Of a stretch of DNA of 45,139 bases, positions 11,943-43,506 are shown in pieces; position 1 is the first letter of the stretch, and each line of letters starts with the position of its first letter. Below the pieces are notes generated by a model that made no database searches, was not told the origin of the DNA, and worked only from the letters and a program-made list of their open reading frames with translations. Source of the DNA: Gammaproteobacteria bacterium (lineage in GTDB: Bacteria; Pseudomonadota; Gammaproteobacteria; Ga0077536); contig JAIEQK010000073.1 of the NCBI GenBank assembly GCA_019747795.1, positions 1 through 45,139 on the forward strand, in the 5' to 3' direction. A program made the position numbers and the translations under genes.

Positions 11943-13739
11943 TCAGGCGTAGAGCGCCGCGAGCCGCTCGGCGTAGGCGGCGGCGATGAGGTGCCGCCTG
12001 ATCTTCATCGATGGCGTGAGCAGGCCGTTCTGCACCGTGAACGGCTGTTCAGCCAGCGCGAAACGCCGCACCCGCTCGGCCGGCGCGAGCGTCGCGTTGA
12101 GGCGCTTCACCACCGCCTCGAGATGCGCCACGAAGGCCGGGTCGCTGCCCGCGTCGCCGACCGTCAGGCGCGCGCCGTGGCGCGCGTTCCAGTCGCGCAG
12201 GAATTCTTCCCGGGGAACCAGCAGGGCGACCAGGTGCGGGCGACGGTCGCCGTAAACCATGGCCTGGCCGATTTCGGGCTGCAGGGTCAGGAAGCCCTCC
12301 ACCCGCTGGGGCGCGACGTTGTCGCCGCCGGAGTTGACGATGATGTCCTTCTTGCGATCGGTGATGCGCAGATGGCCGTCGGCGTCCAACTCGCCGATGT
12401 CGCCGGTATGCAGCCAGCCGTCCGCCAGCGCCTGGTGGGTGGCATCCTCGTCGTTGCAGTAGCCGCGCATCACCAGTTCGCCACGCACGCAGATCTCGCC
12501 GTCCTCGGCGAGGCGCAGTTCCACGCCGGCGAGCGGCGGCCCGACGCTGTCCAGGCGCGCGAGCTCCGGCGGGTTGCAGGCGATCACCGGGCCAGCCTCG
12601 GTCTGGCCGTAGCCCTGCACCACCTGGGTGCCGAGCGCGGCGAAGAAGCGGGCCACCTCGAGATTGAGCGGCGCGCCACCCGAGACGAAGAACTTCAGCC
12701 GGCCGCCCAGCAGCGCCGCGAAGCCCGCGCGCACCCGGCGTCCGGCGGTGCGGTCGAACAGCCATTCCCAGGGCGTGAGACCTTGGCCCAGGCTGCGGCG
12801 CGTGCCGATGCCGACCGCGGTGTCGAACAGCCAGGCGCGCAGGCGTCCCTGGCGCTTCACCGTCCAGGTGGTGCGCGCGTACAGGGTCTCGAACAGGCGC
12901 GGCACGACGGTCAGGATGGTCGGGCGAACGCTGGCGAGGTCGCCGAGCAGCCGGTCGATGGATTCGCAGTAGTGGATCTGCGCGCCGATGGACAGCGCGG
13001 TGAACTGGCCGGTGGCGTGTTCGTAAGCGTGGGACAGGGGCAGGAAGGACAGGAAGACCTCGCGCCCATAGTCGAGCCGCGAGTGCAGCCGTTCCCAGGC
13101 GCCGAGGCAGTTGGCGAGGATGCTGCCGTGGGTGAGCATCACGCCGCGCGGCCGACCGCCGGTACCCGAGGTGTGGAAGATCACCGCGAGGTCGTCGCGC
13201 GCGATCCCGTCGATCCGCTCAGCGAGCGGGCGCGGCGCCTTCGCGCCTGTCTCGAGTACGGTGTCCCAGGCCACGACCTCGAGCGCCGGCGCGGCGGACT
13301 CGAAGGCCTCCATCGCTATCAAGGTGCGGCAGCGCGCCGAGGCCGCGGCGGCGGGCGCCAGCACCGCCGCCAGGGCGGCGCGCGAGACGATCGCGTAGCC
13401 CACGGCGGCGTTGTCCAGCACGTGGCGATGATCGTCCTCGGTGTTGGTCACGTAGGCCGGCACCGCCACCGCGCCGAGCGCGAGGATCGCGAGTTCGGCG
13501 ATCAGCCATTCCGGGCGGTTCTCGGCGACTATGGCCACGCGCGCGCCGCGCTCGACGCCGAGCGCCTCGAGGCCCTGCGCGAGCTGCGTCACCTGGTCCA
13601 CGACTGCGTGCCAGGAGAGTGATTGCCACGCGCGGCCGTCGCGCCGCCACAGGCAGGGCGCGTCACCGCGCTGCGCGGCGGTCTCCAGGAACAGCGCGCA
13701 CAGATTGGGCCACCGCTGGTAGGTCTGGACGTCCAGCAC
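11943..13739 (-). CDS. AMP-dependent long-chain fatty-acid ligase (FAA1/FadD15-like)
   Basis: The protein has about 598 residues and activates a fatty acid with ATP for transfer to CoA or ACP. Visible motifs are the P-loop HTSGTGGRPRGVMLTHG, YGQTEAGPVI (A5 region), the hinge GDIGELDADGHLRITDRKKDIIVNSGG, and a C-terminal LTPSMKIRRH with the catalytic Lys region. The frame stays open far upstream into the preceding gene, but similarity begins near VLDVQTYQRWPNL, so the GTG at 13739 is chosen; it lies 8 bp after the patatin stop and has no clear ribosome site, suggesting translational coupling. It is separate from the XrtA-type ligase at 41084-42670 and looks like a general long-chain acyl-CoA synthetase. 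Its neighbours suggest it recycles fatty acids released by the patatin. Confidence 0.87.
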   Translation of the reverse strand: MLDVQTYQRWPNLCALFLETAAQRGDAPCLWRRDGRAWQSLSWHAVVDQVTQLAQGLEALGVERGARVAIVAENRPEWLIAELAILALGAVAVPAYVTNTEDDHRHVLDNAAVGYAIVSRAALAAVLAPAAAASARCRTLIAMEAFESAAPALEVVAWDTVLETGAKAPRPLAERIDGIARDDLAVIFHTSGTGGRPRGVMLTHGSILANCLGAWERLHSRLDYGREVFLSFLPLSHAYEHATGQFTALSIGAQIHYCESIDRLLGDLASVRPTILTVVPRLFETLYARTTWTVKRQGRLRAWLFDTAVGIGTRRSLGQGLTPWEWLFDRTAGRRVRAGFAALLGGRLKFFVSGGAPLNLEVARFFAALGTQVVQGYGQTEAGPVIACNPPELARLDSVGPPLAGVELRLAEDGEICVRGELVMRGYCNDEDATHQALADGWLHTGDIGELDADGHLRITDRKKDIIVNSGGDNVAPQRVEGFLTLQPEIGQAMVYGDRRPHLVALLVPREEFLRDWNARHGARLTVGDAGSDPAFVAHLEAVVKRLNATLAPAERVRRFALAEQPFTVQNGLLTPSMKIRRHLIAAAYAERLAALYA

Positions 13740-15721: not shown

Positions 15722-16627
15722 ATGTCCACCCAGCTCAAAGCCAAGATCTCACCAGCGCCGGTAGCCGCGCCCGTCGGCGCGACGCGCCTCGCCGCGTCGG
15801 TGCGCGACATCGCCGCGCTGCCGACCGCCTGCATGCGGGTCGTGCAGGTGGCGAACGATCCTGCCGCCTCGGCCGGTGACATCGCCGAGGTCGTGAGCTG
15901 CGATCCGGCGCTCGCCGCGCGTGCGCTCAGGCTGGTCAATAGCGCGGCCTACGCTCTGCCCGAACGGGTCTCGACCTTGAGCGGCGCGGTGCGGGTACTC
16001 GGCACCGACGGCCTGCGCGACCTGGCGCTCGCAAGCGGCGCGATCGGCGCGCTCGACAAGCTGGCGTCGCCGTTGCTCGACATGGACGAGTTCTGGCGCA
16101 CCAGCGTGCACAGCGCGCTGGTCGCGCGCGAGCTCGGCGCGATCTCGCGCCACGCTCACCCCGAACAATGCTTTCTCGCCGGCCTGCTGCACGATGTCGG
16201 CGCGCTCGCGATCGCGAGCCGCGAACCCGAACACTGGCTCGAAGTGCAGCGTCGCCTGGAGCAGGCGGCCGGGCCGCGCGCGGGCATCGAACTCGAGGTG
16301 TTCGGATTCACGCGGGCCGACGTCGGTGCGGAGCTGCTGCGCGCCTGGCGTCTGCCCGAGGCGCTGGTGGAGCCGGTGCGGCACATCGAGCGTCCCGCCA
16401 CGGCTGGCGACTACATCGGCGATGCGGCGATACTGAACATCGCGCGCGCGCTGTCCAGCTTCGATGTCGCGCGCGCCGACGGTGTGGCGGCGCCGCTGCC
16501 GCCCATCACCTGGAAGCTCGCAGGCCTGGCCGAACACGTCGCGGCCGAGGTCCTCGACCAGGCGGATGCGCGCTGGTTCGAAGTCCTCGAGATCCTCGCC
16601 CCGGGCGGCGTGCAGCTGCGCTACTGA
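15722..16627 (+). CDS. HDOD-domain signalling protein
   Basis: This 301-residue soluble protein has an HDOD domain at about residues 25-225: IAALPTACMRVVQVANDPAA, ALRLVNSAAYALPERVSTL, AVRVLGTDGLRDLALAS and FLAGLLHDVGALAI. The last retains the HD pair found in HD-GYP relatives. HDOD proteins are non-enzymatic or poorly characterised scaffolds in c-di-GMP signalling, chemotaxis and stress responses. A GAGGAA sequence lies 6-11 bases before the ATG. It is divergent from the patatin gene (88-bp gap) and converges with the DUF1302-like gene. Its link to the exosortase system is only by position. Confidence 0.85.
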   Translation: MSTQLKAKISPAPVAAPVGATRLAASVRDIAALPTACMRVVQVANDPAASAGDIAEVVSCDPALAARALRLVNSAAYALPERVSTLSGAVRVLGTDGLRDLALASGAIGALDKLASPLLDMDEFWRTSVHSALVARELGAISRHAHPEQCFLAGLLHDVGALAIASREPEHWLEVQRRLEQAAGPRAGIELEVFGFTRADVGAELLRAWRLPEALVEPVRHIERPATAGDYIGDAAILNIARALSSFDVARADGVAAPLPPITWKLAGLAEHVAAEVLDQADARWFEVLEILAPGGVQLRY

Positions 16628-16638
16628 GTGCCGCGCGG

Positions 16639-18252
16639 CTAGAAGGTATAGCGCAGCTCGTAGTAGACGCGATCGCGCTGTTCGAACTGGCCCAGCACGC
16701 CAGTCGGCGGCCCTCCGAACACGTCGGCGCCGAGCACCCCGCGCCAGTGTCCGGAGATGTTCCAGGTGGTCTTCACCTCGAGCAGCCATTCGTCGCGGTC
16801 GAGGCTGCGGATCCACAGGATCTCGGGCGTGATGTCGTCGCCGAAGCGCGTCGTGGTCAGCAGCACGCTGAAGCCGCTCTCGATTTCCTCGAACAGCATG
16901 CCGGGCCTGTGATCCTGCAGCCAGGTCTGGAAGAACTGCAGGTTGACGTTGTGACCGTCACCCGACCAGTCCGCGCCGAACACGTAGCGCAGCTCGTCGC
17001 TCTTCTCGAGGCCGTCGAGGTCGGTGAGCGGCAGCATGGTGATGGCGCGATCGGTGGTTTCGACCGCCTCGGCCTTCAGCACCACCGAGCCGAGATCCTT
17101 GGCCACCGTCGCGCCGACCTGGTGGATGCGGTTGTGGCGTGGAAAGAAAGTGAGGGCGGGTACCGGCGCGAGCGCGTCCACGCGGCGCTCGTAGGCGGCC
17201 TGGCGATCGGGCGCGGTGTAATAGAACAGCGCCATGTCCCAGCCGTTCAGCAAGTAGCTCAGCCGCGTGCCGTAACCGGAATCCTGGCCCACTTCGCTCG
17301 GTATCTTGTCCTCGCGAAAGCGGGCGTCGACGCCGGGCGGCAGCTCGACCGGAAACAGGAAGAAATCGCCGCCGAACTTGCCGAGTTCGTTCTTGGTCAC
17401 GTAGGGCACGAAAATCAGGTCGGCGTGAAAGTCGCCGTTGAAGTACTCGGCGCGGGCGGCCCACTGCGGAATGCGGATCATCTCGAAGTCGGGCAGCACG
17501 AACTCGCGCAGGTCGAGCGCGGAGACCACGTCGGCGAAGAACAGGCCGACCATCTCGCCCCAGATGATGTGTTGCCGGCCGAGGCGGATGTCCCAGGCGC
17601 CGGCATCGATATCCAGGAAGGTCTCGTCGATGAAGGCGAAGATGTCCTGGTCGTTGCGCACGCGGCGGTTGTAGAACTGGTTGAAGTCGAAGTTCGGGTC
17701 GTAGCTGAAGTCGCCGCCCAGTTGCCACTTCACGCGGTCGTTCAGGCGACCGTTCGCGCGCAGCTTGGTGCGGGTGCGGAACTTCGACAGGTGATCGGGC
17801 TCGGCCACCGTGTAGGCCATCTCGTTCTGTACGAACCCGGACACCTTCACCGCCGGCGCGCGCGGCGCGACGGGCGCGGCGGCGACAGCGGTTTCGGCCG
17901 CCTCCGGGGCGGGGGCGGGCGCAGGTGCGAACAGGTCATCGGTCGTGGCGGGTTCCGCCGCTTCGTCGGTCGGCGCGGCCAAGGACTCGGGACTCGCGCC
18001 AGGGGCTTCGGCCGTGGGGGCTTCCTCGGCGGGCGCCGTCGCGGTGCCTTCGTCCTCGGCGGGCGTGTCGGTGGCCGCGCCGTCCGATTGGAAAAGGTCG
18101 TCCATGGATTCCTGCGCCAGGAGGGGGCCGGCCAGGGGATCGAAGTCTTCCGCGTAGGCGCGGGACGCGCCGCCCAGGGCACAGGCGGCGCCCAGCAGCG
18201 CGACGGCGAGGCGGCCGCCGGGGCGCCCGGAATGCAGGGGGCTATGCGCCAT
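16639..18252 (-). CDS. DUF1302-like outer-membrane beta-barrel protein
   Basis: The ATG at 18252 is preferred over the upstream one at 18321: it has GGGAGG about 10 bases upstream and opens a proper signal peptide (LAVALLGAACALGGASRAYA). The mature 500-odd residues begin with ~80 residues of low-complexity Ala/Pro/Glu/Thr sequence. A barrel region follows, with alternating strands and RLGRQHIIWGEMVGLFFADV, the RxGxQxxxWGE pattern of the DUF1302 family. The chain ends in YYELRYTF, a terminal Phe typical of proteins inserted by BamA. DUF1302 members are often near lipid or hydrophobic-substrate genes; a role in moving lipid across the outer membrane would suit the adjacent lipid module but is inference. 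Confidence 0.78.
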   Translation of the reverse strand: MAHSPLHSGRPGGRLAVALLGAACALGGASRAYAEDFDPLAGPLLAQESMDDLFQSDGAATDTPAEDEGTATAPAEEAPTAEAPGASPESLAAPTDEAAEPATTDDLFAPAPAPAPEAAETAVAAAPVAPRAPAVKVSGFVQNEMAYTVAEPDHLSKFRTRTKLRANGRLNDRVKWQLGGDFSYDPNFDFNQFYNRRVRNDQDIFAFIDETFLDIDAGAWDIRLGRQHIIWGEMVGLFFADVVSALDLREFVLPDFEMIRIPQWAARAEYFNGDFHADLIFVPYVTKNELGKFGGDFFLFPVELPPGVDARFREDKIPSEVGQDSGYGTRLSYLLNGWDMALFYYTAPDRQAAYERRVDALAPVPALTFFPRHNRIHQVGATVAKDLGSVVLKAEAVETTDRAITMLPLTDLDGLEKSDELRYVFGADWSGDGHNVNLQFFQTWLQDHRPGMLFEEIESGFSVLLTTTRFGDDITPEILWIRSLDRDEWLLEVKTTWNISGHWRGVLGADVFGGPPTGVLGQFEQRDRVYYELRYTF

Positions 18253-18330
18253 CTTGATCGTTCCTCCCAATCGGCCGGCCTGCCCGGCGCTCAATCCTTT
18301 GGCGTGGCTCTCGATCGCCACAATGCATGA

Positions 18331-25760: not shown

Positions 25761-26766
25761 CTGCAACGCCGGCGACGGCGCCGCCTGGGACGCCTACGTC
25801 GCCGCGCATGTCCGCGCATCGTTCTTCCACCAGTTCGGGTGGCGCGAGGTGTTCGAGCGCGCGCTCCGTCATCGCTGCCATTACCTGCTCGCCGAACGTG
25901 ACGGCGCGGTGTGCGGCGTGCTGCCCCTGGTGCACGTCAAGAGCCTCTTGTTCGGCAGCAGCCTGAGTTCGCTCGCGTTCTGCAGCGAGGCGGGACCGCT
26001 CGCCGACGACGAACAGACGCTGATCGCGTTGGAAGCGGCCGCGCTGGAACGCGCCCGCGCGCTCGGCGTGGGGTCGCTCGAGTACCGCCTGCGCGAGGCG
26101 AGCGGACGCGAGCGTCCGACCAAGCACCTCTATCACACCTTCAGCAAGACGATACTCGCGAGCGAAGAGGCCAACATGCAAGCCATTCGCAGCAAGCAGC
26201 GCAACATCATCCGCAAGGGCATCAAGAACGGCCTCGAGTTCCGCGCCACCTCGCTCGAACGTTTCTACCCGGTCTACGCCGAGAGCGTGCGTAACCTCGG
26301 CACGCCGGTGTTTCCGCGCGCGCTGTTCGAGGCGATCCACGCGGCCTTTCCCGACAGCACGGAGTTCGTCGAGGCCAATCTCGAGGGCGTGGCCGTGTCC
26401 GGCGCGATGAATTTCTATCATCGTGACAGCGTGTGCCCCTACTACTGGGGCGGCACCCATGCCGCGCGGGACCTGAAGGGCAATGATTTTCTCGCCTGGT
26501 CCATCCTCTGTCGCGCCGCGGAGCGGGGCTGCACGCTGTTCGACTTCGGCCGCAGCAAGCAGGGCACGGGCGCCTGGCAGTGGAAGGAGAATCTCGGCTT
26601 CGAGGGCGCGCCGCTGTTCTACGAGTACGAACTGGTGCGCGACCGCGAAGTACCGGAGAAGAATCCGCTCAACCCCAAGTACCGGCTGTTCGTAGAGGGC
26701 TGGAAGCATTTGCCGCTGCCGGTTTCGAACGCACTCGGGCCGTGGTTGGCGCGCAGCCTTGGCTAG
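25738..26766 (+). CDS. FemAB-like XrtA/PEP-CTERM system-associated protein
   Basis: This protein of about 342 residues belongs to the FemAB/GNAT superfamily (exosortase subgroup TIGR03019). Recognisable segments are FFHQFGWREVFERAL, LPLVHVKSLLFG, KQRNIIRKGIKNGLEF, PYYWGGTHAARDLKGNDFLAW and FDFGRSKQGTGAWQWKENLGF. FemAB relatives transfer amino acids from aminoacyl-tRNA to peptidoglycan precursors; here the acceptor may be a glycan or a PEP-CTERM-linked envelope component, unproven. The start is the GTG at 25738 (GTG at 25747 is an alternative); the frame is open further upstream but runs into the deacetylase. It overlaps deacetylase and exosortase at its two ends. Confidence 0.88.
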   Translation: MTSVQVRDCNAGDGAAWDAYVAAHVRASFFHQFGWREVFERALRHRCHYLLAERDGAVCGVLPLVHVKSLLFGSSLSSLAFCSEAGPLADDEQTLIALEAAALERARALGVGSLEYRLREASGRERPTKHLYHTFSKTILASEEANMQAIRSKQRNIIRKGIKNGLEFRATSLERFYPVYAESVRNLGTPVFPRALFEAIHAAFPDSTEFVEANLEGVAVSGAMNFYHRDSVCPYYWGGTHAARDLKGNDFLAWSILCRAAERGCTLFDFGRSKQGTGAWQWKENLGFEGAPLFYEYELVRDREVPEKNPLNPKYRLFVEGWKHLPLPVSNALGPWLARSLG

Positions 26767-28285
26767 CATCTTGGCGCTGCCCGCGGTCGATGCGCGCTGG
26801 CGTGAACGCCTGCCGCTGGTGCTCGTGGCCCTGCTCGCGGTGCTCGCCGCGCAGTACGCCACGCTGGCCGACATGGTCGGCATCTGGTGGCATTCCAGCA
26901 CCTTCAATCACTGCTTCCTGATCCTGCCCATCGCGCTCGGTCTCGGCTGGTCGCGGCGTGCCGAACTCGCGGCCTGTGCCCCCGGGCGCTCCTGGTGGGG
27001 CGCGGGCTACGCCCTGGCGAACGGCCTGCTGTGGCTCGCGGGCGCGACGCTGTCCATCGCCTTCGTGCAGCATGTCGCGCTGATCGGGCTCATCATCGGC
27101 GTCGGCTGGGCACTGATCGGCAACGCCGCGTTCCGCGTGCTGCTGGTGCCGTTCCTGTATCTCTACTTCAGCGTGCCGGAGGGCGAGTTCCTGGTGCCAC
27201 GGCTGCAGGACTGGACAGCAGAAGTGCTGGTCAGCGCGCTGCAGGTGACCGGCATCCCGGTCTACGTGGAAGGACGTCACCTGACCATTCCCTCGGGCAG
27301 CTTCGTGGTGGCGGAAGCCTGCAGCGGCATCAACTACCTGATCGCGACCTTGGCCGTCGGCACCATGTACATGTATCTCAATTTCCGCAGTCCCTGGCGG
27401 CGGGCCGCGTTCATGGGGCTCGCGGTCGCAGTGCCGCTCATCGCCAACGGCCTGCGCGCCTATGGCATCGTGATGATCGCCCACCTGTCGGACTACAAGT
27501 ACGCGCTCGGCATCGATCACTTCATCTACGGCTGGGTGTTCTTCGGCATCGTGATCTTCGCGCTGTTCGCGCTCGGCAATCGCTTCAGCGACGTCGATCC
27601 CGACGCGCCCGCGCCCCCGGTCACACCTTCGACGTCCGCGCTCACCCCGCGCGCCTCGCCTCTCGCGCCCGTGCTGCTGGTGCTGGCCGTGGCGGCGCTC
27701 GCGCCGCCGCTGTTGCTGCACGCCGCGAGCGCGAACCGGCCGCTGGCACCTGCCGTCGCGCTGCCCTCGGTGCCGGACTGGCAGGGTCCGCGTGAGGGGC
27801 GGCTCGATCTTGGCGCCGAGCGCGCAGGCACTGACCAGACGCTGGCAGGCGTCTACCAGGACGCGCGCGAGGCAACGGTGTGGCTGACGTTCGATTACTT
27901 CCGCGGCGAGGGGCCGGGCAAGGAACTGGTGAACCAGTCGCAGCGCGGCTTCGATCCCAAGCGCTGGCAGCAGATCGACTACGGCGCCGCGTTTCCGGCG
28001 CCCGCCAGCGGCGTGGCACAGGCGAACGCGGTACGACTGCGCAACGTCGCGAGCGGCGAGGAGTACCTGCTGTGGAGCTGGTACGACACCCAGGGGCAAC
28101 GCTCCAGCACGCGTCTCGCGGTCAAGTTGGCCCAGGCCGGCGCGCGCCTGCGTGGCGACCCCGTCGGCGGCGCGGTGGTGACCGTCGCCACGCGCGTCGA
28201 GGGCGGCGCGGACGGCGCGGCGGTGCTGAACCGCTTCCTCGCTTCAGGCGCGATAGCGCTCGAACGCCTGCACGTCGCGCCATGA
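26759..28285 (+). CDS. xrtA: Exosortase A with fused EpsI domain
   Basis: This 508-residue inner-membrane enzyme is predicted to cut PEP-CTERM sorting signals and transfer the protein to a cell-envelope acceptor. Residues 1 to about 285 hold some eight membrane helices and the catalytic residues: Cys188 in AEACSGINYL, Arg233 in ANGLRAYGI and His254 in DHFIYGW. After a short Ala/Pro linker, residues about 310-505 form a periplasmic EpsI-type domain (SVPDWQGP, VWLTFDYFRGEGPGKELVN). This fusion is characteristic of XrtA. The TTG at 26759 overlaps the FemAB-like stop by 8 bp; another TTG lies 12 bp on. The stop overlaps the next gene's ATG. All three catalytic residues are intact, so an active system is expected although no substrate is encoded here. 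Confidence 0.96.
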   Translation: MASILALPAVDARWRERLPLVLVALLAVLAAQYATLADMVGIWWHSSTFNHCFLILPIALGLGWSRRAELAACAPGRSWWGAGYALANGLLWLAGATLSIAFVQHVALIGLIIGVGWALIGNAAFRVLLVPFLYLYFSVPEGEFLVPRLQDWTAEVLVSALQVTGIPVYVEGRHLTIPSGSFVVAEACSGINYLIATLAVGTMYMYLNFRSPWRRAAFMGLAVAVPLIANGLRAYGIVMIAHLSDYKYALGIDHFIYGWVFFGIVIFALFALGNRFSDVDPDAPAPPVTPSTSALTPRASPLAPVLLVLAVAALAPPLLLHAASANRPLAPAVALPSVPDWQGPREGRLDLGAERAGTDQTLAGVYQDAREATVWLTFDYFRGEGPGKELVNQSQRGFDPKRWQQIDYGAAFPAPASGVAQANAVRLRNVASGEEYLLWSWYDTQGQRSSTRLAVKLAQAGARLRGDPVGGAVVTVATRVEGGADGAAVLNRFLASGAIALERLHVAP

Positions 28286-32550: not shown

Positions 32551-33531
32551 TCAGGCGGCGGCCTCGTCGAGGTAGGCCGCGCGGCGAAAATAGTTCATCA
32601 CCAGCCGACCGAGGTATTTCGCCTCGCTGTCGTCCCACGGCGAGAAGCGCGGGATCTGGAAGCGTGGCGTGCGCGGGTCGGCGGTGCCGGCGGCGGTGGT
32701 GAGCGCGAATTCATAGCCGAGTTCCGCGAGCAGCGCGCAGTGCTCCGCGGCGAAGTCCTGGCCCGGGCGGCCGTTCGGATAGGCGAAGCACACCACGGGC
32801 TCGCCCAGGATGCGCTCGAGTTCGGCCTTGTTGGTCGCTATTTCTTCACGCGCCTCGGCGAGCGGCAGCGAACACAGGATGGGATGGCTGACCGTGTGTC
32901 CGCCGACCTCCATGCCCGCCGCGCGCAGCCGGCGAATCTCGTCGGCGTTGGCCATCAGTCCGCTGACCGTCGCGCCGCTGCGGGCCAGCAGATCCGAGGC
33001 GGCGTGCTCCCGCTCGGCGTGGGGCAGGTACTTGAGTTTCTCGAGCAGGCCGGGCAGGGACGCGACCCGTGCGCCGCGCAGCGCGAAGGACTCGAGACCG
33101 TAGGGCCTGAGGTCGATGTCGTCGTCAGGCCATGCGCGCAGCGCCTCGATCACTCGGTCGTTCCACATCATGCCGCCGTCGAGGTAGCGGGTGGTGACGA
33201 AGAAGGTGGCCGGCACGCCCAGTTCGGTCAGGATCGGCAGCGCGTTGGTCACGTTGTCGCGATAGCCGTCGTCGAAGGTGATGGCGAGCGCGCGTGGCGG
33301 CAGGGTGCCGGCGTACAGACGTCGCACCGCCTCGACCAGCGGCAGCACGTGAAAGCCATCGCGCAGCCAGCGCACGCGGGCACGAAAGCGCGCGCAGTCC
33401 GGTTCGTCGGGCAGCAGCGGGTCCGGCGTCGCCGGCACGCGGTGGAAGTAGACGATGGACAGGCGACGTTCCACCAGGGCGGCGGTCAAGAGCGCGAGTT
33501 TGCAGCCGATGTCTATCATGGTGCGGAGCAC
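32551..33531 (-). CDS. Second polysaccharide deacetylase (CE4/NodB family)
   Basis: This 326-residue CE4 enzyme has a short hydrophobic N-terminus (IGCKLALLTAALV) that could be a signal anchor. NodB motifs are clear: ALAITFDDGYRDN (two Asp), ELGVPATFFVTTRYLDGG, MEVGGHTVSHPILCSL (metal His) and VVCFAYPNGRPGQDF. It differs from the XrtA-type deacetylase at 24858 and looks like the outer-envelope PgaB/IcaB-like or generic group, which needs periplasmic export. It could therefore act on the polymer after synthesis. An ATG at 33519 is an alternative start. It is alone on the minus strand, facing the second amidotransferase across a 130-bp gap and converging with the glycosyltransferase. Confidence 0.86.
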   Translation of the reverse strand: MLRTMIDIGCKLALLTAALVERRLSIVYFHRVPATPDPLLPDEPDCARFRARVRWLRDGFHVLPLVEAVRRLYAGTLPPRALAITFDDGYRDNVTNALPILTELGVPATFFVTTRYLDGGMMWNDRVIEALRAWPDDDIDLRPYGLESFALRGARVASLPGLLEKLKYLPHAEREHAASDLLARSGATVSGLMANADEIRRLRAAGMEVGGHTVSHPILCSLPLAEAREEIATNKAELERILGEPVVCFAYPNGRPGQDFAAEHCALLAELGYEFALTTAAGTADPRTPRFQIPRFSPWDDSEAKYLGRLVMNYFRRAAYLDEAAA

Positions 33532-33661
33532 GCGCGCGGCCGCGAGGATCGGGCGCGCATCAAGGTCGAAGGACTGACGTACGTTACCATAATCGTTTCA
33601 CGGCGCCGGGCCACGCCGCGCCGCGCCGATATAGTCGAGACTGGCGGAATCACCACGCATC

Positions 33662-35467
33662 ATGTTGTTCCTTTGCGGCATCGTTGAACCGCGCGGCACG
33701 CGCGACCTGGCGGCGGATCTGAGCCTCATGGCCGGCGCGCGGCGCGCCGCGCAGGGCCGTGCGCCGAGCACCGTGGGCCTGTCGGGCGCCGCGCTGCTGC
33801 ATGCCAATGGCACGCTCTGCCAGGCGAGCGCAGGCGCCTGTACCGTGCTGGTCTATCGGCCCTCCGCCGAGGAGCTTGACGGCGACCTGGCCAGCGCCCG
33901 CGCGCTGGCCGAGACCTGGCAGCGCACGCGTGCCTTCGACTGCGCGGCCCTGCGCGGCGCCTTCGTCGCCGTGCTGTACGACGCCGAGGCGGGCGAACTG
34001 CGCCTCGCCGTCGACCGCTTCGCGACCTGCCCGCTGTACTACCACGCGAGCGCGACGCGCCTCGCGTTCGCAGTCGATCTTGACGCGCTCGCCGCCTTGC
34101 CCGGCGTGCCGCGCGAGATCGATCCGCAAGCCCTCTACGACTACGTCTTCTACCACTGTATTCCGGCGCCGCGCGCGATCTACCGCGACGTCGCCAAGCT
34201 CGCGCCGGCGGCGCTGCTGGCCTGGCAGGGGGGCGCGGCGAGCCAGTCCGGCTACTGGACGCCGGGCTTCGCGCCCGACGGCCGCGATGCCGACACCCTC
34301 GCCGCGGAACTGCGCGCGCGGCTCGAGACCGCGGTGCGGCGCCGCGCCCGTCCCGGCTGCGGCGCCTTCCTGAGCGGTGGGCTGGACAGCTCGACCGTGG
34401 CCGGCATGCTGAAGCGCGTGGCCGGCCGCGCGCCGACCTTCACCATCGGCTTCGACGCAGCGGAGTACGACGAGTCGGGCTTCGCGCGCATCGCCGCCGA
34501 GCACTTCGCGACCGAGCACCACGAGTACTTCGTCACGCCCGCCGACATTCGCGACTCGCTGCCGCGCATCGCCGCGCACTACGCCGAGCCCTTCGGCAAC
34601 TCCTCGGTGCTGCCCACCTATCACTGTGCGCGCTTCGCGCGCGAGCACGGCGTCGAGCTGCTACTCGCCGGCGACGGCGGCGACGAGCTCTTCGCCGGCA
34701 ACACGCGCTACGTCGAACAGCGCCTGTTCGAACGCTATTTCAACGTGCCGGCGCCGCTGCGCTGGCTTTTGGAGACCGGCTATCGGCTGCTGCCCTTCAT
34801 CACCGCGCTGCCCGTGGCTGCGCGCGGTCAGAGCTACATCCGCCACGCGCGCATGGGCCTGCCGGATCGCCTGCAGGCCTACAACTTCCTGCATCGCTTC
34901 GACCCCGCCGGCGTCTTCGAGGCGGACTGGCTCGCGCACATCGACCGCGAGGCGCCGTGGCGCGGCTGGCGCGAGCGCTACGCGTCGCCTGCCGCAGGCA
35001 GCGCTCTGCAACGCATGCTGCATCTGGACTGGAAGTTCACCCTGGCCGACAACGACCTGGTGAAGGTCACGCGCATGTGCGATCTCGCCGGCGTCGAAGT
35101 GGCCTATCCCATGCTGGACGACGACCTGGTGTTCCTGGCCGAGGGCCTCGACGAGGCGCGCCTGCTGCCGGGCGGCGAACTGCGCGGCTTTTACAAGCAG
35201 GCGCTCGCGGGTGTGCTCCCCGAGGCCATCCTGAAGAAGAGCAAGCACGGCTTCGGTCTGCCCTTCGGCATGTGGCTGCGCACCGACGAGGACTTGAAGG
35301 CCATGGCCCACGACGCGCTCGGCGGGCTCGCCGCGCGCGGCATCTTCCTGCCGGCCTTCATCGAGCAGGCCGAGCGACTGAACCGCGAGTCCGACGCCGC
35401 CGGTTACTACGGCGAGCTCGTGTGGATCATGATGATGCTGGAGCTGTGGCTGCGCGAGCACGCCTGA
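33662..35467 (+). CDS. Asparagine synthase-like protein with degenerate glutaminase domain
   Basis: In this 601-residue protein the synthetase half is well conserved: GAFLSGGLDSSTVAGML (PP-loop from about residue 238), FTIGFDAAEYDESGFAR, LLLAGDGGDELFAGNTRY and KSKHGFGLPFGMW. The N-terminal half is broken as a glutaminase. It begins MLFLCGIVEP, so the only nearby Cys is residue 5 rather than 2, and no upstream or internal start codon would place it second. The HRGPD and NGEIYN motifs are absent. Known relatives with such a loss (for example beta-lactam synthetases) activate a carboxylate with ATP for attack by another amine. It is followed by kdsA after 64 bp, so it probably modifies a sugar acid or amino group in the same polysaccharide pathway. 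Confidence 0.88.
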   Translation: MLFLCGIVEPRGTRDLAADLSLMAGARRAAQGRAPSTVGLSGAALLHANGTLCQASAGACTVLVYRPSAEELDGDLASARALAETWQRTRAFDCAALRGAFVAVLYDAEAGELRLAVDRFATCPLYYHASATRLAFAVDLDALAALPGVPREIDPQALYDYVFYHCIPAPRAIYRDVAKLAPAALLAWQGGAASQSGYWTPGFAPDGRDADTLAAELRARLETAVRRRARPGCGAFLSGGLDSSTVAGMLKRVAGRAPTFTIGFDAAEYDESGFARIAAEHFATEHHEYFVTPADIRDSLPRIAAHYAEPFGNSSVLPTYHCARFAREHGVELLLAGDGGDELFAGNTRYVEQRLFERYFNVPAPLRWLLETGYRLLPFITALPVAARGQSYIRHARMGLPDRLQAYNFLHRFDPAGVFEADWLAHIDREAPWRGWRERYASPAAGSALQRMLHLDWKFTLADNDLVKVTRMCDLAGVEVAYPMLDDDLVFLAEGLDEARLLPGGELRGFYKQALAGVLPEAILKKSKHGFGLPFGMWLRTDEDLKAMAHDALGGLAARGIFLPAFIEQAERLNRESDAAGYYGELVWIMMMLELWLREHA

Positions 35468-37706: not shown

Positions 37707-37958
37707 ATGGCAGTCAATGATGATGTCCGCGCCATCCTGGCGCAGGTGCTGGGTCTTCCCGGCGGCGCCGCGAGCCTCGCGAGCGACACGCCTCTGCTCG
37801 GCGCGCTGCCCGAGTTCGACTCGATGGCGGTGGTGTCGGTGCTGACCGCGCTGGAGGATCATTTCGGCATCTCGGTCGACGACGACGAGGTGGAAGCCGC
37901 GCTGTTCGAGACCGTCGCCACGCTGAGTGATTTCGTCGCCGCCAAGGTCGCCGGCTGA
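37707..37958 (+). CDS. Acyl carrier protein, exosortase A system-associated
   Basis: This acidic protein of about 83 residues has the ACP fold pattern and the phosphopantetheine Ser39 in LPEFDSMAVVSVLTALEDHFGI. It ends in a helix typical of carrier proteins. The ATG at 37707 is preferred; one at 37674 would add 11 residues with no ACP character. It starts a plus-strand run with two exosortase-type hydrolases. The XrtA-type ligase and decarboxylase face it from the other strand. A dedicated carrier suggests that an activated acyl or aminoacyl group is held as a thioester during modification of the envelope polymer or a small molecule. The 241-bp upstream gap, shared with the kdsD start, shows no clear promoter. 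Confidence 0.88.
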   Translation: MAVNDDVRAILAQVLGLPGGAASLASDTPLLGALPEFDSMAVVSVLTALEDHFGISVDDDEVEAALFETVATLSDFVAAKVAG

Positions 37959-37991
37959 GCCGTCGTCCACCGCGCGCCACTCACCCGACCC

Positions 37992-38810
37992 ATGGTGCCG
38001 CGCTACGTCGATCTTGCCGGTCGCCGCCTGTTCTGCCTGTGCCACGCCGCGAGCGGCCCGCGCCGCCGGCGGGTACTCATCGCGCCGCCCTTCGCCGAAG
38101 AGCTGAACAAGTCCCGTCGCCTGCTGGCGCTCACCGCGCGCGCGCTGGCCGCGCGCGGCGCGGAGGTGTGGCTGCCCGACCTGTACGGCACCGGTGACAG
38201 CGCGGGCGACGCCGCGGACGCCCGCTGGGACGACTGGCTGGCCGATTTCGCCGCGTTGGACGCGCAGATGGCGGCCGCCTGCGGCGACGTGCCCGCCGCC
38301 TACCTCGCGGTGCGCACCGGCGCCCTGCTGCTGGCGGGCGCTCCGCTCGCCGGACTCGCCGGCGCGCGGGTGCTGCTGTGGCAGCCGGTGCTGAAGGGCG
38401 CGCGCTTCCTCGAGCAGTTCCTGCGACTCAAGGTCATGGCGGCCAAGCTCGCCGGCCAGGCGCTGTCGCAGAAGGATCTCGACGCCGAACTCGAAAGCGA
38501 GGGCGTACTCGAGGTCGCGGGCTACGCGCTCGCGCGCGACTTCGTCCACGCCCTGCGCACTGCTTCGTTGGCGTCGAGCGCCTTCGCCGGCGCCGCGGCG
38601 GTCATGGTGCGCGAATGCAATCCGGCCGAAGGTGCGCAACTCACCATGCCCACAGCGCAGTGGCTGGAGGCGCTGGTCGCCAACGGCGTGGCTGCGCAGG
38701 GCGCGGTGACGCCTTGCGAACAGTTCTGGGCCACGCAGGAAATCGCGGCCCCGACGCTCCTGGTCGAGCAGGCCGTGGCCGACCTGCTCGGTGCGGAGCC
38801 GGACGCATGA
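37992..38810 (+). CDS. Exosortase A system-associated hydrolase 2 (alpha/beta hydrolase-like)
   Basis: This 272-residue soluble protein has an alpha/beta-hydrolase-like start: VLIAPPFAEELNKSRRLLALTARALAARGAEVWLPDLYGTGDSAG. This stretch is diagnostic of TIGR03101. The nucleophile elbow is not visible; the corresponding strand reads AAYLAVRTGALLLAG with no GxSxG. A catalytic His near the C-terminus is also not obvious (the chain ends LLGAEPDA). It may be a non-catalytic partner of hydrolase 1 or use a different mechanism; I cannot say whether this is general in the family. It is 33 bp after the ACP gene and overlaps hydrolase 1 (ATGA), so they are probably made in equal amounts. Confidence 0.86.
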   Translation: MVPRYVDLAGRRLFCLCHAASGPRRRRVLIAPPFAEELNKSRRLLALTARALAARGAEVWLPDLYGTGDSAGDAADARWDDWLADFAALDAQMAAACGDVPAAYLAVRTGALLLAGAPLAGLAGARVLLWQPVLKGARFLEQFLRLKVMAAKLAGQALSQKDLDAELESEGVLEVAGYALARDFVHALRTASLASSAFAGAAAVMVRECNPAEGAQLTMPTAQWLEALVANGVAAQGAVTPCEQFWATQEIAAPTLLVEQAVADLLGAEPDA

Positions 38811-39676
38811 CGGCGGTGCCCGAAAGCGCGTCGGTGTTCGACATCGCCGGCGAGCCGGCGCTCGCGATCCTGCATGCCGCGGACCGCCCGGCCGACATCG
38901 GGGTGCTGGTGGTGGTCGGCGGTCCGCAGTACCGCGTGGGCTCCCATCGCCAGTTCGTACTGCTGGCCCGCGCGCTGGCGGCGGCCGGCGTGCCCACGCT
39001 GCGTTTCGATTTCCGCGGCTGCGGCGACAGCGGCGGCGAGGCGCGCGACTTCCTCGGCATCGGCACGGACATCGCGGCCGCGGTCGATCACCTGGTGGCG
39101 AGCGCCGGGGTGCGGCGGGTGGTGATCTGGGGCCTGTGCGACGCGGCTTCAGCGGCCCTGCTGTATGCCGCGCGCGACCCGCGCATCGCGGGCCTGGTGC
39201 TGCTGAACCCCTGGGTGCACAACGTCGTGACCGAGGCCAAGGTGCGCCTGAAGAGCTATTACCTCGGCCGGCTGCGCAATCCGCAGTTCTGGCGCAAGCT
39301 GCTGCGCTTCGAACTCGACTGGCGGGACAGCGTCGCGAGCCTGGCCGGCTATGCGCGGCGCGCGCTCGCGCCGCGCGCGTTGGGACAGGACGCGGACGCC
39401 GAGGCAGGCCTCGATTTCGTCGAGCGCATGCGGCGCGGTTGGCAAGCCTTCGGCGGCCCGGTGCTGCTCATCATGAGCGGCGACGACTTCACCGCGGCCG
39501 AGTTTCGCCAGCTGTGCGCCGAAGCGTCGGCCTGGCAGGCGCTGCTCGCGAGCAAGCCCATCACCCGCGTCGATCTGCCCGCCGCCAACCACACCTTCGC
39601 CCGCGCCGAGTGGCGCGCCGAGGTGGAGCGGGCGACGGTCGACTGGCTGCGCGAACGTTTCGGCGCAGGGGCCTAG
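38807..39676 (+). CDS. Exosortase A system-associated hydrolase 1 (alpha/beta hydrolase with Cys elbow)
   Basis: This 289-residue alpha/beta hydrolase of the TIGR03100 type has VLVVVGGPQYRVGSHRQFVLLARALAAAGVPTLRFDFRGCGDSGG (read in pieces), a nucleophile elbow WGLCDAAS with Cys111 where Ser is usual, an Asp region IMSGDDFTA and a C-terminal His in AANHTFAR. A Cys-Asp-His triad, as in dienelactone hydrolase, is therefore likely. A role in removing or transferring an acyl group held on the adjacent ACP is plausible but unproven. The stop TAG (39674-39676) is formed partly by the first base of the inserted MITE-like element. Confidence 0.88.
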   Translation: MTAVPESASVFDIAGEPALAILHAADRPADIGVLVVVGGPQYRVGSHRQFVLLARALAAAGVPTLRFDFRGCGDSGGEARDFLGIGTDIAAAVDHLVASAGVRRVVIWGLCDAASAALLYAARDPRIAGLVLLNPWVHNVVTEAKVRLKSYYLGRLRNPQFWRKLLRFELDWRDSVASLAGYARRALAPRALGQDADAEAGLDFVERMRRGWQAFGGPVLLIMSGDDFTAAEFRQLCAEASAWQALLASKPITRVDLPAANHTFARAEWRAEVERATVDWLRERFGAGA

Positions 39677-39825
39677 CCTGGAGTTCTCACAGGTGCTGGT
39701 CGCGAGGGCGACGAGATGCCGTGGTAGTGGCAACCGCACCCGTTGGACCTGTTTCAATCGGCCACGCACAGCTACCACGCGCAGATCGGCGGCCGCAGCA
39801 GAGCGCCTGTGAGAAATCCAGGCTA
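39674..39825. mobile_element. MITE-like element, 148 bp, with 22-bp inverted ends and TA duplication
   Basis: The ends 39676-39697 and 39802-39823 are inverted repeats matching at 20 of 22 positions, starting GCCTGGA. Both are flanked by TA (39674-39675 and 39824-39825), giving a target-site duplication inside a CTAG-like target, as in IS630/Tc1-mariner-type elements. A second, inner pair of 8-bp arms (39720-39727 and 39772-39779, CGTGGTAG) strengthens a foldback structure. No transposase is encoded, so it would depend on one elsewhere. The element fills the whole space between two convergent genes and supplies one base of each stop codon. Confidence 0.72.
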
Positions 39826-41070
39826 GACGAGGATCTCGAGCGGCGCCGGGTGGCTCAGGAACAGCTGCGGACTCGCCGTGTAGCCGTAGGCGCCCGACTG
39901 CAGCACGCACACCAGGTCGCCCACCGCGAGCGTGGGTACGCGGAGCTTGTCGGCGACGATGTCGAGTGGCGTGCACAGCGGGCCGACGATGTTGGCCGTG
40001 CCGGTCGGCGCCTCGTGCAAGCGGTTCGCGATCACCACCGGGTAGTTCTTGCGCAGCACCTGGCCGAAGTTGCCGGAGTTGGACAGGTGGTGGTGCAGGC
40101 CGCCATCGACCATGGCGAACAGCTGGCCCTGGGATTCCTTGAGGTCGGTGATGCGGGTCAGGTAGTAGCCGGCCTCGCCCACCAGGTAGCGACCGAGTTC
40201 CACCACGATGCGCGCGCCGCCCAGCGCCGCGCGGTGGCGTTCCAGGGCATCGCCGAGCGCGCTGCCGACGGCCGCGAGATCGAGCGGCTGCTCGCCGGGG
40301 AAGTAGGGAATGCCGTAGCCGCCGCCGATGTTGAGGCTGCGGAACGGGCGCGGCGCCTGCGCGGTGAGCGCAGCGGCGAGTTCCAGCGTGCGGGCATTGG
40401 CCTCGATGATCGCCTCCGCGCGCAGGTTCTGCGAGCCGCAGAAGATGTGCAGGCCCTCGAGGCCGAGGCCGAGTGCCTCGGCCTGGCGCATCGCCGCCGG
40501 AATGCGCGCCGCGTCGATGCCGAACTGGCGCGGGCTGCCGGCCATCTTCATGCCGGCGCCCTTGAGTTCGAAATCCGGGTTGACGCGCAGCGCGACCCGT
40601 GCCGGCAGTTCGAGATCGCGCGCCTGGCGCGCGAGGCGTTCGAGCTCGGTCTCAGATTCGCAATTGACGCAGATGCCGGCGGCGACGGCCGCGCGCAGCT
40701 CCGCCTCCTGCTTGGCAGGGCCGGCGAAGCTGATCTCGGCCGGGTCCATGCCCGCGTCGAGCGCCACCAGCATCTCGCGCTGCGAGGCGACGTCGAAGCC
40801 GTCCACCAGGCCGGCGAAGTGCGCGACCACGGCGGGCATCGGGTTGGCCTTGATCGCGTAGTGCAGTTCGACCTCGGCCGGCAGGCAGGCCCGCAGTGCC
40901 GCCACGCGCGCGCTCATCGCCGCGCGGTCGTAGACGTAGAGCGGCGTGCGGCCAGCGCGCGCCGCCAGGCGCTCGGCCGGCTGTCCGCCAATCAGGAGCT
41001 GGCCGTCGCGCGTGGCGAGGCTCGAAAGTCGAGCGTGACTGTCCTTGGGTGTGTCCATCGTGGCACTCAT
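39823..41070 (-). CDS. Exosortase A system PLP-dependent decarboxylase (ornithine/DAP decarboxylase family)
   Basis: This 415-residue fold-type III decarboxylase matches TIGR03099. The PLP Lys is in LHYAIKANPMP. Further signatures are FDVASQREM, SFAGPAKQEAEL, HIFCGSQNL, LNIGGGYGIPYFPGE, ELGRYLVGEAGYYLTRI and the C-terminal substrate region VGPLCTPLDIVADK with the catalytic Cys. It should remove a carboxylate from an amino acid or an amino-acid-derived conjugate; substrate unknown. The ATG at 41070 is followed by another in frame 12 bp later. It lies 13 bp after the ligase gene on the same strand. Its stop codon at 39823-39825 overlaps the TA duplication and end of the MITE-like element. Confidence 0.93.
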   Translation of the reverse strand: MSATMDTPKDSHARLSSLATRDGQLLIGGQPAERLAARAGRTPLYVYDRAAMSARVAALRACLPAEVELHYAIKANPMPAVVAHFAGLVDGFDVASQREMLVALDAGMDPAEISFAGPAKQEAELRAAVAAGICVNCESETELERLARQARDLELPARVALRVNPDFELKGAGMKMAGSPRQFGIDAARIPAAMRQAEALGLGLEGLHIFCGSQNLRAEAIIEANARTLELAAALTAQAPRPFRSLNIGGGYGIPYFPGEQPLDLAAVGSALGDALERHRAALGGARIVVELGRYLVGEAGYYLTRITDLKESQGQLFAMVDGGLHHHLSNSGNFGQVLRKNYPVVIANRLHEAPTGTANIVGPLCTPLDIVADKLRVPTLAVGDLVCVLQSGAYGYTASPQLFLSHPAPLEILV

Positions 41071-41083
41071 GCTGGCGGTCGCG

Positions 41084-42670
41084 TCACGATGCCACGAACA
41101 GCTCGGCGTAGTCGCTGGCGAGCTGGGGGCGGTTGATCTTGCCGTTGGGGTTCTGCGGCATCTCGTCGGTCAGCACGATGCGCGCCGGCTGCATGTAGTT
41201 CGGCAGCGCCTGGCGGCAGGCGGCTGCGATGTCGGCCTCGCTCACCTGGCTCTCGTGCGCGGGGCGCACCACCAGCACGATGGCCTGGCCGAGCTCGGTG
41301 TGAGGCACGCCGACCGCGGCCACGGTCTCGACCCCGCCCATGGCGTAGACCACTTCCTCGATCTCCTCCGGGCTCACACGGTAGCCGGAGGTCTTGATCA
41401 TGCCGTCGGAGCGGCCGACGAAATACAGGTAGCCGTCCTCGTCCATGCGCACCGTGTCGCCCGACCACACGGCCATTTCGGTCAGCGGGATGCCGGCCGG
41501 CTGACCCGGGGCGGGCTTGAAACGCGCCGCCGTGCGCTCGGGGTCGTTCCAGTAGCCGAGCGACACCAGCGCGCCGCGATGCACCAGCTCGCCCGGCTCG
41601 TTGACGCCGGCGCGGCTGCCATCCGGCCGCACCACCATGATCTCGGCGTTGGGGATGGCCTTGCCCATGGAGCCGCGGCGCTCGTCGATCTTCTCTGGCG
41701 GGAGGAAGGTCGAGCGAAAGGCCTCGGTCAGGCCGTACATGAGATAGGGCCGCGTGTTCGGCAGGTTGCGGCGCAGCTTGTCCAGCACGCCGTCCGGCAT
41801 CGCGCCACCGGAGTTGGTGATGTAGCGCAGGCTCGCCTGCACCTCGGTTGGCCACTCGAGGCCCGCGAGCTGCGCCCACAGCGGCGGCACCGCGCCGAGC
41901 CCGGTGATGCGGTGGCGGGCCAGCGCGCGGATCACGTCCTTGGCGAGCAGGTAGTCGAACAGCACGCAGGTCGCGCCGCGCAGCACCGCGCTGGTCAGCT
42001 GGTTGAGGCCGTAGTCGAAACTGAAGGGCAGCACCGCGAGCAGCCGGTCGCGCGCGGTGATCTCGAGATAGCTCGACACGCTGCGCGCGCCGTCGACGAT
42101 GTTGCGATGGGAGATGATCACGCCCTTGGGGCGCCCGGTGCTGCCCGAGGTGTAGAGGATCGCCGCCATGTCGTTGTCGACCCGCCGCGGCAGGTCGACC
42201 GCGGGCGGGGTGGCCTCGCCGAGCGGCGTCCAAGCCGACACGGGGACGCCGGCCACGGCCTCGGCTGGCGGCGCATCGGCCAGCAGCACGTGGTGCAGGT
42301 TGCGGCAGGCCGGCAGGATTTCCGTCAGGTGCTTCAGGCGGTCGGCGCTGGTGATGAGCACGCGCACGTCGCAGTCGTTCAGGATGTGCTCGACCTGGGC
42401 CGGTTTCAGGATCGGGTTGACCGGTACCACCACGCCGCCGGCCGCGGTCGCCGCGTAGAACGCGTAGGCGGTCAGCGGCAGCTTGGGCAGGAACACCGCG
42501 ACTCGGTCGTTCGCTTGAATGCCGAGCGCCATGAGCCGCGCGGTCAGCGCGCGGACCTCGGCGGCGAAACCCGCCGCGCTTACCTCGCCGTGCTTGTCGT
42601 GCACCAGCAGCACGCTTGCAGGCGCGGCGGCGGCGGTTTCGAACAGGGTCTGGTGCAGCAGGTAGCCCAT
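41084..42670 (-). CDS. Exosortase A system AMP-dependent acyl ligase
   Basis: This 528-residue ANL-superfamily ligase is of the TIGR03098 type. Motifs are A3 LYTSGSTGRPKGVIISH, the A5 region YGLTEAFRSTFLPPE, A7/A8 GDTVRMDEDGYLYFVGRSDGMIKTSGYRVSPEEIEEV and a final NPNGKINR with the catalytic Lys. It activates a carboxylate as an adenylate and probably loads the nearby ACP. MGYLLHQTLFETAA is the expected N-terminus. The decarboxylase follows after 13 bp, and the convergent plus-strand block carries ACP and hydrolases. Whether the acid is fatty, amino or another type is not established. Confidence 0.93.
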   Translation of the reverse strand: MGYLLHQTLFETAAAAPASVLLVHDKHGEVSAAGFAAEVRALTARLMALGIQANDRVAVFLPKLPLTAYAFYAATAAGGVVVPVNPILKPAQVEHILNDCDVRVLITSADRLKHLTEILPACRNLHHVLLADAPPAEAVAGVPVSAWTPLGEATPPAVDLPRRVDNDMAAILYTSGSTGRPKGVIISHRNIVDGARSVSSYLEITARDRLLAVLPFSFDYGLNQLTSAVLRGATCVLFDYLLAKDVIRALARHRITGLGAVPPLWAQLAGLEWPTEVQASLRYITNSGGAMPDGVLDKLRRNLPNTRPYLMYGLTEAFRSTFLPPEKIDERRGSMGKAIPNAEIMVVRPDGSRAGVNEPGELVHRGALVSLGYWNDPERTAARFKPAPGQPAGIPLTEMAVWSGDTVRMDEDGYLYFVGRSDGMIKTSGYRVSPEEIEEVVYAMGGVETVAAVGVPHTELGQAIVLVVRPAHESQVSEADIAAACRQALPNYMQPARIVLTDEMPQNPNGKINRPQLASDYAELFVAS

Positions 42671-42735: not shown

Positions 42736-43506
42736 TCAGCGCCCCGCCAGCAGCGCGGCCAAGTAGCGCGCCGGGATGGCGTAGGTGATGGCGCTCGGGT
42801 CGCGCAGTATGTCCTCCTTGCGCCCCTTCACGAACACCATGTTGATGATGCCGACCACCGCGCCGCTGTCCTGGCGGTAGACCGGGCTGCCGCTGTTGCC
42901 GGGATAGGCAATGGCGTCGAGCTGCAGCACCTCGTAGGGCGAGCGCAGCGCCAGCAGCTTGTCGGTCGACAGCTCGCGGGAGTTATCGGCCGGCATCGCG
43001 AGCGGCGTTAGCGCGGCGACGATGCCCTGGTGGGTCGCGGCGTTCAGACCCAGCACGGGGCCGATGGGATAGCCGGTGAATGCGATGGCGGTACCTTCCG
43101 GTGGCGCGGCGCCGGTATCGATGCTTAGCGTCGGCAATGGCGCCCCGGGCAGGGCGAGCAGGGCGAGGTCGTGGGCCGGGTCACGCGCCACCACGCTGAC
43201 GCTCCGCACGTCGATGTCGGTGCCGTGCCCGATGAGCACCACCAGGCGTTCGCGACTGGCCTCGTCCAGGGGCGCATCGACGACGTGCAGGTTGGTCGCG
43301 ATCCGCCCGCCGTCGCCGACCGCGAACCCGGTGCCGAGGTAACGCACCTGCGGCCGGCGCAGCTCGGCGAAGGTGCCGATGCCGACCACCGACGGTTTGA
43401 CCCGCGCGATGGTCGCGACCAGGGCGTCGGTGGCCGGTGCTGCCAGGCTCCAGGTGAGCGCGACGCACAGCGTGGCCACGCGCCAGAAGGAAGAACCGCA
43501 GGCCAT
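42736..43506 (-). CDS. Secreted trypsin-like (S1C/HtrA-like) serine protease
   Basis: This 256-residue protein has an N-terminal signal (VATLCVALTWSLAAPATDA). It carries one chymotrypsin-fold domain with the full triad: His74 in ATNLHVVD, Asp113 in DPAHDLALL and Ser205 in AYPGNSGSPVY. No PDZ domain follows, so it is smaller than DegP/DegQ. Such short S1C proteases are often near exosortase genes. It could act in periplasmic quality control or on surface proteins; its target is unknown. It is on the same strand as galE upstream and the ligase downstream (65-bp gap), so may be in that operon. Confidence 0.85.
   Translation of the reverse strand: MACGSSFWRVATLCVALTWSLAAPATDALVATIARVKPSVVGIGTFAELRRPQVRYLGTGFAVGDGGRIATNLHVVDAPLDEASRERLVVLIGHGTDIDVRSVSVVARDPAHDLALLALPGAPLPTLSIDTGAAPPEGTAIAFTGYPIGPVLGLNAATHQGIVAALTPLAMPADNSRELSTDKLLALRSPYEVLQLDAIAYPGNSGSPVYRQDSGAVVGIINMVFVKGRKEDILRDPSAITYAIPARYLAALLAGR

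Follow-up and report, generated by a model that had tools for sequence, protein, structure and literature searches.

A predicted pathway for a carrier-bound beta-amino acid in a gammaproteobacterial exosortase A locus

An acyl carrier protein (ACP), an adenylating ligase, a pyridoxal phosphate (PLP) decarboxylase and two alpha/beta hydrolase-like proteins are encoded together at 37707-42670 of a 45,139-nt stretch of gammaproteobacterial DNA (contig JAIEQK010000073.1; the full stretch is called the window here), and the question raised by this locus is what the five proteins make and where the product goes. Genes of this set are members or near-members of TIGR03098-TIGR03101, which NCBIfam calls 'exosortase A system-associated', so that the families are named by association only. 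In the literature searched, which included few subscription papers, we found neither a functional account of these families nor the pathway reading presented below. An earlier note on this DNA had proposed that an acid is adenylated, loaded on the ACP, decarboxylated or coupled, and released or transferred by a Cys-type hydrolase. The five genes it described are all present, and its scheme is supported by a ligase of VinN type and a decarboxylase of BtrK/VinO type. On balance, we consider it probable that the five proteins produce a beta-amino acid bound to the carrier and hand it on, with aspartate converted to isoaspartyl-ACP, then to beta-alanyl-ACP, and the acyl group transferred to an acceptor. 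The genes of the set are as follows.

37707..37958, + strand: acyl carrier protein; PF00550, 35.5 bits; Ser39 codon at 37821-37823, within EFDSMA
37992..38810, + strand: hydrolase 2 (TIGR03101-like); 177.9 bits, cut-off 202.75; Arg108 (38313-38315) in place of the nucleophile; predicted partner without catalytic activity
38807..39676, + strand: hydrolase 1 (TIGR03100); 319 bits, cut-off 168; Cys111 (39137-39139), Asp227 and His262; predicted acyltransferase/thioesterase
39823..41070, - strand: PLP decarboxylase (TIGR03099), BtrK-like; 573 bits, cut-off 478; PLP Lys74; GPLCTPLD motif
41084..42670, - strand: adenylating ligase (TIGR03098); 734 bits, cut-off 592; VinN-like pocket D219/Y220/S287/R319, catalytic K511

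The genes form two short convergent operons, ACP-hydrolase 2-hydrolase 1 on the forward strand and ligase-decarboxylase on the reverse strand, where the ligase gene is first. The ligase and decarboxylase genes are 13 bases apart, the start of hydrolase 1 overlaps the stop of hydrolase 2 (ATGA), and 146 bases lie between hydrolase 1 and the decarboxylase stop. A scan for promoters and terminators gave nothing over chance. Three of the four TIGR families passed their curated cut-offs, hydrolase 2 being the member that fell short.

Predicted chemistry of the five proteins

When the whole ligase was compared with the PDB, the matches were adenylation domains of nonribosomal peptide synthetases (NRPS) and VinN. 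Restricting the comparison to the part with the substrate pocket (residues 1-344) put VinN (3WV4) first at 121.6 bits; LgrA was next (113.7 bits, several domains summed), and FadD13 scored 87 bits. The roles of VinN residues were taken from two published accounts. For VinN it is proposed that Asp230 recognises the alpha-amino group of a substrate joined via its beta-carboxyl, and that Ser299 and Arg331 recognise the alpha-carboxyl group (PMC7756342); VinN also has a bulky F231 and a shortened loop bearing K330 and R331 (PMC11253843). By position count on the alignment, D219, Y220, S287, F318 and R319 of the ligase correspond to D230, F231, S299, K330 and R331. All three recognition residues are thus found in the ligase as D219, S287 and R319, the bulky residue is Tyr220, and the shortened beta13-beta14 loop is shared, the segment from the YGxTE motif to R319 being gap-free against VinN. 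Among related ligases, D219 (75/75), R319 (76/76) and K511 (76/76) are invariant; position 287 carries Ser in 31 and Thr in 45, and position 220 carries Tyr in 33 and Ala in 42. The relatives fall into two pocket types, Tyr/TNS (33) and Ala/ANT (42), and the window ligase belongs to the VinN-like Tyr type; the columns that best separate the types (220, 259, 285, 290, 402 and 287) are mostly in or near the pocket. From these family comparisons we predict that the ligase loads an amino dicarboxylic acid by its side-chain carboxyl, with weaker grounds for aspartate instead of glutamate. Aspartate is the likely acid of the Tyr-type ligases, and the Ala type might take a longer one.

The decarboxylase resembled BtrK most closely among solved structures (250.9 bits, 2e-73), as against 161.6 bits and 3e-46 for the best diaminopimelate (DAP) decarboxylase. 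It has the motif GPLCTPxD in common with BtrK, where the aligned DAP decarboxylase reads GPVCETSD, and K74, C366, T367, P368 and D370 are invariant in 81/81 rows. In an unrooted tree, a branch with 100/100 support parts nine DAP-type decarboxylases from BtrK and the TIGR03099 family. Monophyly of BtrK with that family could not be shown, and only the split from the DAP-type enzymes is used here, because the tree is unrooted and has several long branches. The protein does not score as LysA (253.9 bits to TIGR01048, cut-off 297.9), its motif is CTPLD and not C-E-S/T-x-D, and a separate lysA-type gene lies on another contig of the genome (G000:C314). With BtrK as the nearest solved relative, the GPLCTPxD motif and a carrier protein gene beside it, the decarboxylase is predicted to act on a carrier-bound amino acid.

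Three characterised or proposed systems use comparable parts. In vicenistatin biosynthesis, the free-standing ACP VinL receives 3-methylaspartate from VinN, and decarboxylation by VinO takes place only once the acid is on this carrier (PMC11284099). The present set is like VinN/VinL/VinO in its stand-alone ligase with an Asp/Ser/Arg pocket, as it is like the aspartate-using relative FlvN of fluvirucin, and in the combination of a free-standing ACP with a PLP decarboxylase for the loaded ACP. In contrast, the VinN/VinL/VinO product primes a polyketide synthase (PKS) with the help of VinM, VinK and VinJ, whereas neither a PKS nor an NRPS was identified in the window, where the partners are two alpha/beta hydrolases and an exosortase/exopolysaccharide locus; VinN K330 is also replaced by Phe. 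The BtrI/BtrJ/BtrK system, which makes the butirosin side chain, is similar in its type of decarboxylase, which acts on an aminoacyl-ACP; however, butirosin uses glutamate, and its ligase BtrJ is an ATP-grasp enzyme, whereas the ligase here is an ANL-type adenylating enzyme. BtrK makes gamma-aminobutyryl-BtrI (PMC7857480). A third parallel is BolO/BolC/BolN of bolagladin biosynthesis in Burkholderia gladioli, with a VinN-like ligase, an ACP and a BtrK-like decarboxylase; it has been proposed to convert aspartate to beta-alanyl-ACP, and deletion of bolN was unrescued by beta-alanine (PMC7756342). That pathway feeds an NRPS lipopeptide and is not described as tied to an exosortase, whereas the set here lies in an exosortase locus.

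The ACP had been described in the earlier note as having an intact phosphopantetheine serine, and Ser39 is indeed Ser in 52/52 ACP rows. Its picture of two alpha/beta hydrolases stands for the fold; as enzymes, the two proteins differ. In hydrolase 1, C111, D227 and H262 were present in all of 30 aligned rows and in 33-34/34 of a second alignment, and the structure model (pLDDT 89) places these residues at the nucleophile elbow and downstream of the last two strands. A Cys nucleophile fits acyl transfer from a thioester, and we infer that hydrolase 1 is acyltransferase-like, the transfer itself being less firmly indicated. Hydrolase 2 lacks the Ser, Cys or Asp nucleophile and the His of a catalytic alpha/beta hydrolase: the nucleophile position is Arg in 34/34 rows, with R108 lying between strand 102-107 and helix 110-116 of the model (pLDDT 91), and a conserved FW stands past the last strand, at the expected His site. 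TIGR03101 is its best family at 177.9 bits, and it holds its position in the conserved gene order. Hydrolase 2 is predicted to be non-catalytic, a pseudo-enzyme, and may serve as a partner. Fold searches placed S33-type esterases nearest to hydrolase 1 and, for both proteins, returned generic S33-type esterases only, with no clue to the acceptor.

Based on these comparisons, a VinN-type ligase paired with a BtrK/VinO-type decarboxylase would yield a beta-aminoacyl-ACP, most likely beta-alanyl-ACP, and the amine or aminoacyl product foreseen in the earlier note can be narrowed to this. We propose that the ligase forms an AMP ester at the side-chain carboxyl of an amino dicarboxylic acid, L-aspartate being the most likely one, and then loads the activated acid on the Ser39-phosphopantetheine of the ACP. 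The PLP decarboxylase would next strip the alpha-carboxyl from the carrier-bound amino acid, leaving beta-alanyl-S-ACP with a free primary amine. In a third step the acyl group would pass to Cys111 of hydrolase 1 and from there to an acceptor, with the catalytically dead hydrolase 2 serving as a partner or docking subunit. As acceptor we envisage a component of the surface polymer associated with XrtA, or the lipid that carries this polymer; amine groups would be added to it in this way. Loading and decarboxylation on the carrier are predicted from residue-level homology to characterised pathways, the transfer step follows from conserved residues and co-occurrence, and the company of the genes suggests the acceptor. 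Most economically, the set would decorate a component of the surface polymer with a beta-alanyl group or a close homologue.

Association with exosortase A

The earlier note had assigned the proteins to types found with exosortase A, and the window agrees with it.

26759..28285, + strand: exosortase A (XrtA); TIGR03109, 319.6 bits, cut-off 208; partner system in the window

Around it are encoded PrsK, PrsR, EpsB, export, chain-length, kinase, ATPase and deacetylase proteins, FemAB and an XrtA-type amidotransferase. Since XrtA and these partners share the window with the set, the association with exosortase A is a physical one at this locus. There are also 28 PEP-CTERM segments over the family cut-off in the genome, by a short model that also passes in 2/14 control genomes. 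With XrtA, the partner genes and the PEP-CTERM segments all present, the exosortase A system of this genome looks complete. The same genome has a second exosortase-like gene (G000:C331:64452-65225), which scores 167 bits to TIGR03109, under the cut-off.

Co-occurrence was counted in a class sample of 168 genomes, 31 of them with XrtA over the cut-off, and in a phylum sample of 289 genomes, 27 of them with XrtA. In all, 33 genomes of the two samples have hydrolase 1, and 32 of these have XrtA over the cut-off. The exception, with a weaker exosortase (182 bits), is G040 of the class sample, where the other 12 of the 13 genomes with hydrolase 1 are XrtA-positive; hydrolase 2 occurs in the same 13 genomes, plus one weak match (G012). 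By Fisher's test, hydrolase 1 is concentrated in XrtA-positive genomes in the class (12/31 vs 1/137, p=2e-9) and in the phylum (22/27 vs 0/262, p=1e-28), although these p-values ignore shared ancestry. The hydrolase 1 gene is no more than 11 kb from that of the decarboxylase in 29/33 genomes, and no more than 42 kb from XrtA in 23/25 genomes with both on one contig. The ligase-decarboxylase pair is less strictly bound to XrtA: in the class it is found in 12/31 XrtA-positive genomes (split over two contigs in G081) and in 5/137 others, and in the phylum the decarboxylase passes its cut-off in 24 genomes, of which 22 are XrtA-positive (2/262 of those without XrtA).

On the earlier note's question of whether the set is widespread without exosortase A, these counts give a divided answer, in that the hydrolases never occurred without an exosortase in the samples and the pair or the decarboxylase occasionally did so. 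Ligase, ACP and decarboxylase would form an amine-making module able to live without XrtA, and the hydrolases are the XrtA-tied part. Because the pair is sometimes found without XrtA and many XrtA genomes are without the set (19/31 in the class and 5/27 in the phylum, including G078 of the window's own family), the set is an optional partner of exosortase A.

Gene order was read in 18 regions of class relatives and in 80 loci of named genomes. The latter are the best 80 of at least 583 confirmed decarboxylase relatives, mostly from Beta- and Gammaproteobacteria (genera include Thauera, Azoarcus, Roseateles, Massilia, Nitrosomonas, Methylomonas, Endozoicomonas and Accumulibacter), and their neighbour counts are lower bounds, many contigs being short. 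In these loci the ligase accompanies the decarboxylase in 75/80, often with overlapping genes, and an ACP gene is near in 50/80. Hydrolases 1 and 2 are each present in 33/80 and nearly always paired, in the order ACP-hydrolase 2-hydrolase 1, and the ACP is the first gene of this run in many genomes. Since this gene order recurs in many Beta- and Gammaproteobacteria, the grouping is far more than chance.

Other acids, acceptors and enzyme roles

Several observations weigh against the beta-alanyl pathway as proposed, beyond the shared ancestry behind the co-occurrence figures. The VinN K330 equivalent is Phe318, invariant in the family, so that the ligase lacks the VinN-type lysine; K330 is not among the residues named for substrate recognition in PMC7756342. 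The substrate may differ between ligase subgroups, because 42/75 related ligases have Ala for Tyr220 and Thr for Ser287. Two genomes (G048 and G167) keep ligase, decarboxylase and ACP without either hydrolase, and another acceptor enzyme must therefore exist there. Finally, a TIGR03100-like hydrolase has been reported in a Burkholderia exopolysaccharide cluster with no mention of an exosortase (PMC3584217), the sole mention of TIGR03100 in the literature searched.

The strongest competitor keeps the same pathway and changes the acid: glutamate, joined by its gamma-carboxyl, or methylated aspartate would give gamma-aminobutyryl- or methyl-beta-alanyl-ACP. BtrK, the nearest decarboxylase, acts on glutamyl-BtrI, VinN itself takes 3-methylaspartate, and two pocket types whose separating columns lie mostly at or near the pocket are what differing substrates would lead one to expect. 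Nevertheless, the window ligase is of the Tyr type, with a bulky residue and Ser as in VinN, which takes 3-methylaspartate and weakly aspartate, and the annotated genes of the window yielded neither an aminomutase nor another enzyme suited to an unusual acid. We regard another acid as a minority possibility, perhaps one chance in a handful.

A second alternative accepts the chemistry of beta-alanyl-ACP and differs on its role. Here the beta-alanyl amine would be put on the glycan or lipid that receives exosortase A proteins and would be the amine acceptor in transpeptidation of PEP-CTERM proteins, in the subset of organisms that carry the set. The confinement of the hydrolases to exosortase genomes speaks for it, as do two genomes (G117 and G420) in which the hydrolases stay about 25 kb from XrtA and the ligase-decarboxylase pair lies elsewhere. 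There is also an archaeal parallel in the proposal linking archaeosortase with archaetidylethanolamine: ArtA function needs PssA and PssD, the decarboxylation giving an amine lipid, and an amine nucleophile has been suggested (PMC7157517). Against it, XrtA must manage without the set in the 19/31 and 5/27 genomes counted above, and the set therefore cannot be a general XrtA requirement. The earlier note's idea of an anchor for XrtA-joined proteins stays a guess, and we hold this role to be unlikely.

Less likely again is a decarboxylase that turns a free amino acid into a free amine, a polyamine or beta-alanine, with the ligase and ACP using other substrates. Alanine-racemase-fold decarboxylases, the group to which the family belongs, do act in many cases on free amino acids, but the nearest solved relative uses a carrier-bound substrate, an ACP gene is so often near, and loss of the decarboxylase in the parallel bolagladin pathway was not rescued by free beta-alanine. 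Least probable of all is an ordinary fatty-acyl-CoA or acyl-ACP ligase that supplies lipid beside an unrelated decarboxylase, as the NCBIfam name 'acyl-CoA ligase' and matches to general acyl-CoA ligase models might suggest, for D219 and R319, both invariant, suit an amino acid that has a second carboxyl, VinN ranks above fatty-acid ligases over the pocket, and the ligase gene so regularly adjoins that of the decarboxylase.

Neighbouring genes and implications

One neighbour was considered as a member of the core set and rejected.

33662..35467, + strand: asparagine-synthetase-like amide ligase without the glutaminase Cys; PF00733, 244.6 bits; associated, outside the core set

A gene of this kind occurs in 27/80 loci, often adjacent, and in L066, L079 and L093 it shares a few bases with the decarboxylase gene; it was left outside the core because many XrtA genomes carry it without the set. 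Its relatives keep the SGGxDS ATP-binding motif, and none with an alignable N terminus has Cys2; intact XrtA-type amidotransferases, by contrast, have MCG. The protein is likely to be an amide ligase whose amine substrate is not ammonia. A GNAT/FemAB-like protein (PF13480) is encoded in 23/80 loci, in many beside the ACP or ligase (next to the ACP in L052, L064, L071, L079, L116 and others), and might receive the aminoacyl group as an alternative acceptor enzyme. As a general acceptor enzyme it was rejected for the window, where it is absent.

A trypsin-like serine protease gene (42736-43506) adjoins the ligase gene, and a relative is also beside the ligase in L035, L049, L056, L072 and L083. 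The exosortase locus further holds type I secretion genes (TolC, LssB-type ABC transporter and HlyD) at 5805-10570 and large open reading frames at 11334-13622 and 16168-18330 with no NCBIfam match at 1e-10. A polysaccharide deacetylase is encoded at 32551-33531 on the - strand; the frame at 32740-33687 (+), a candidate glycosyltransferase, was rejected as a shadow frame over this gene.

Exosortase A systems are widespread in environmental bacteria and are tied to floc formation; to our knowledge, neither an acceptor nor a complete list of partners is known for them. The beta-aminoacyl-ACP reading gives four families known by association only a specific, testable chemical prediction. If it is true, starter-unit chemistry of the antibiotic type would be used outside polyketide and peptide assembly, for modification of the cell surface.

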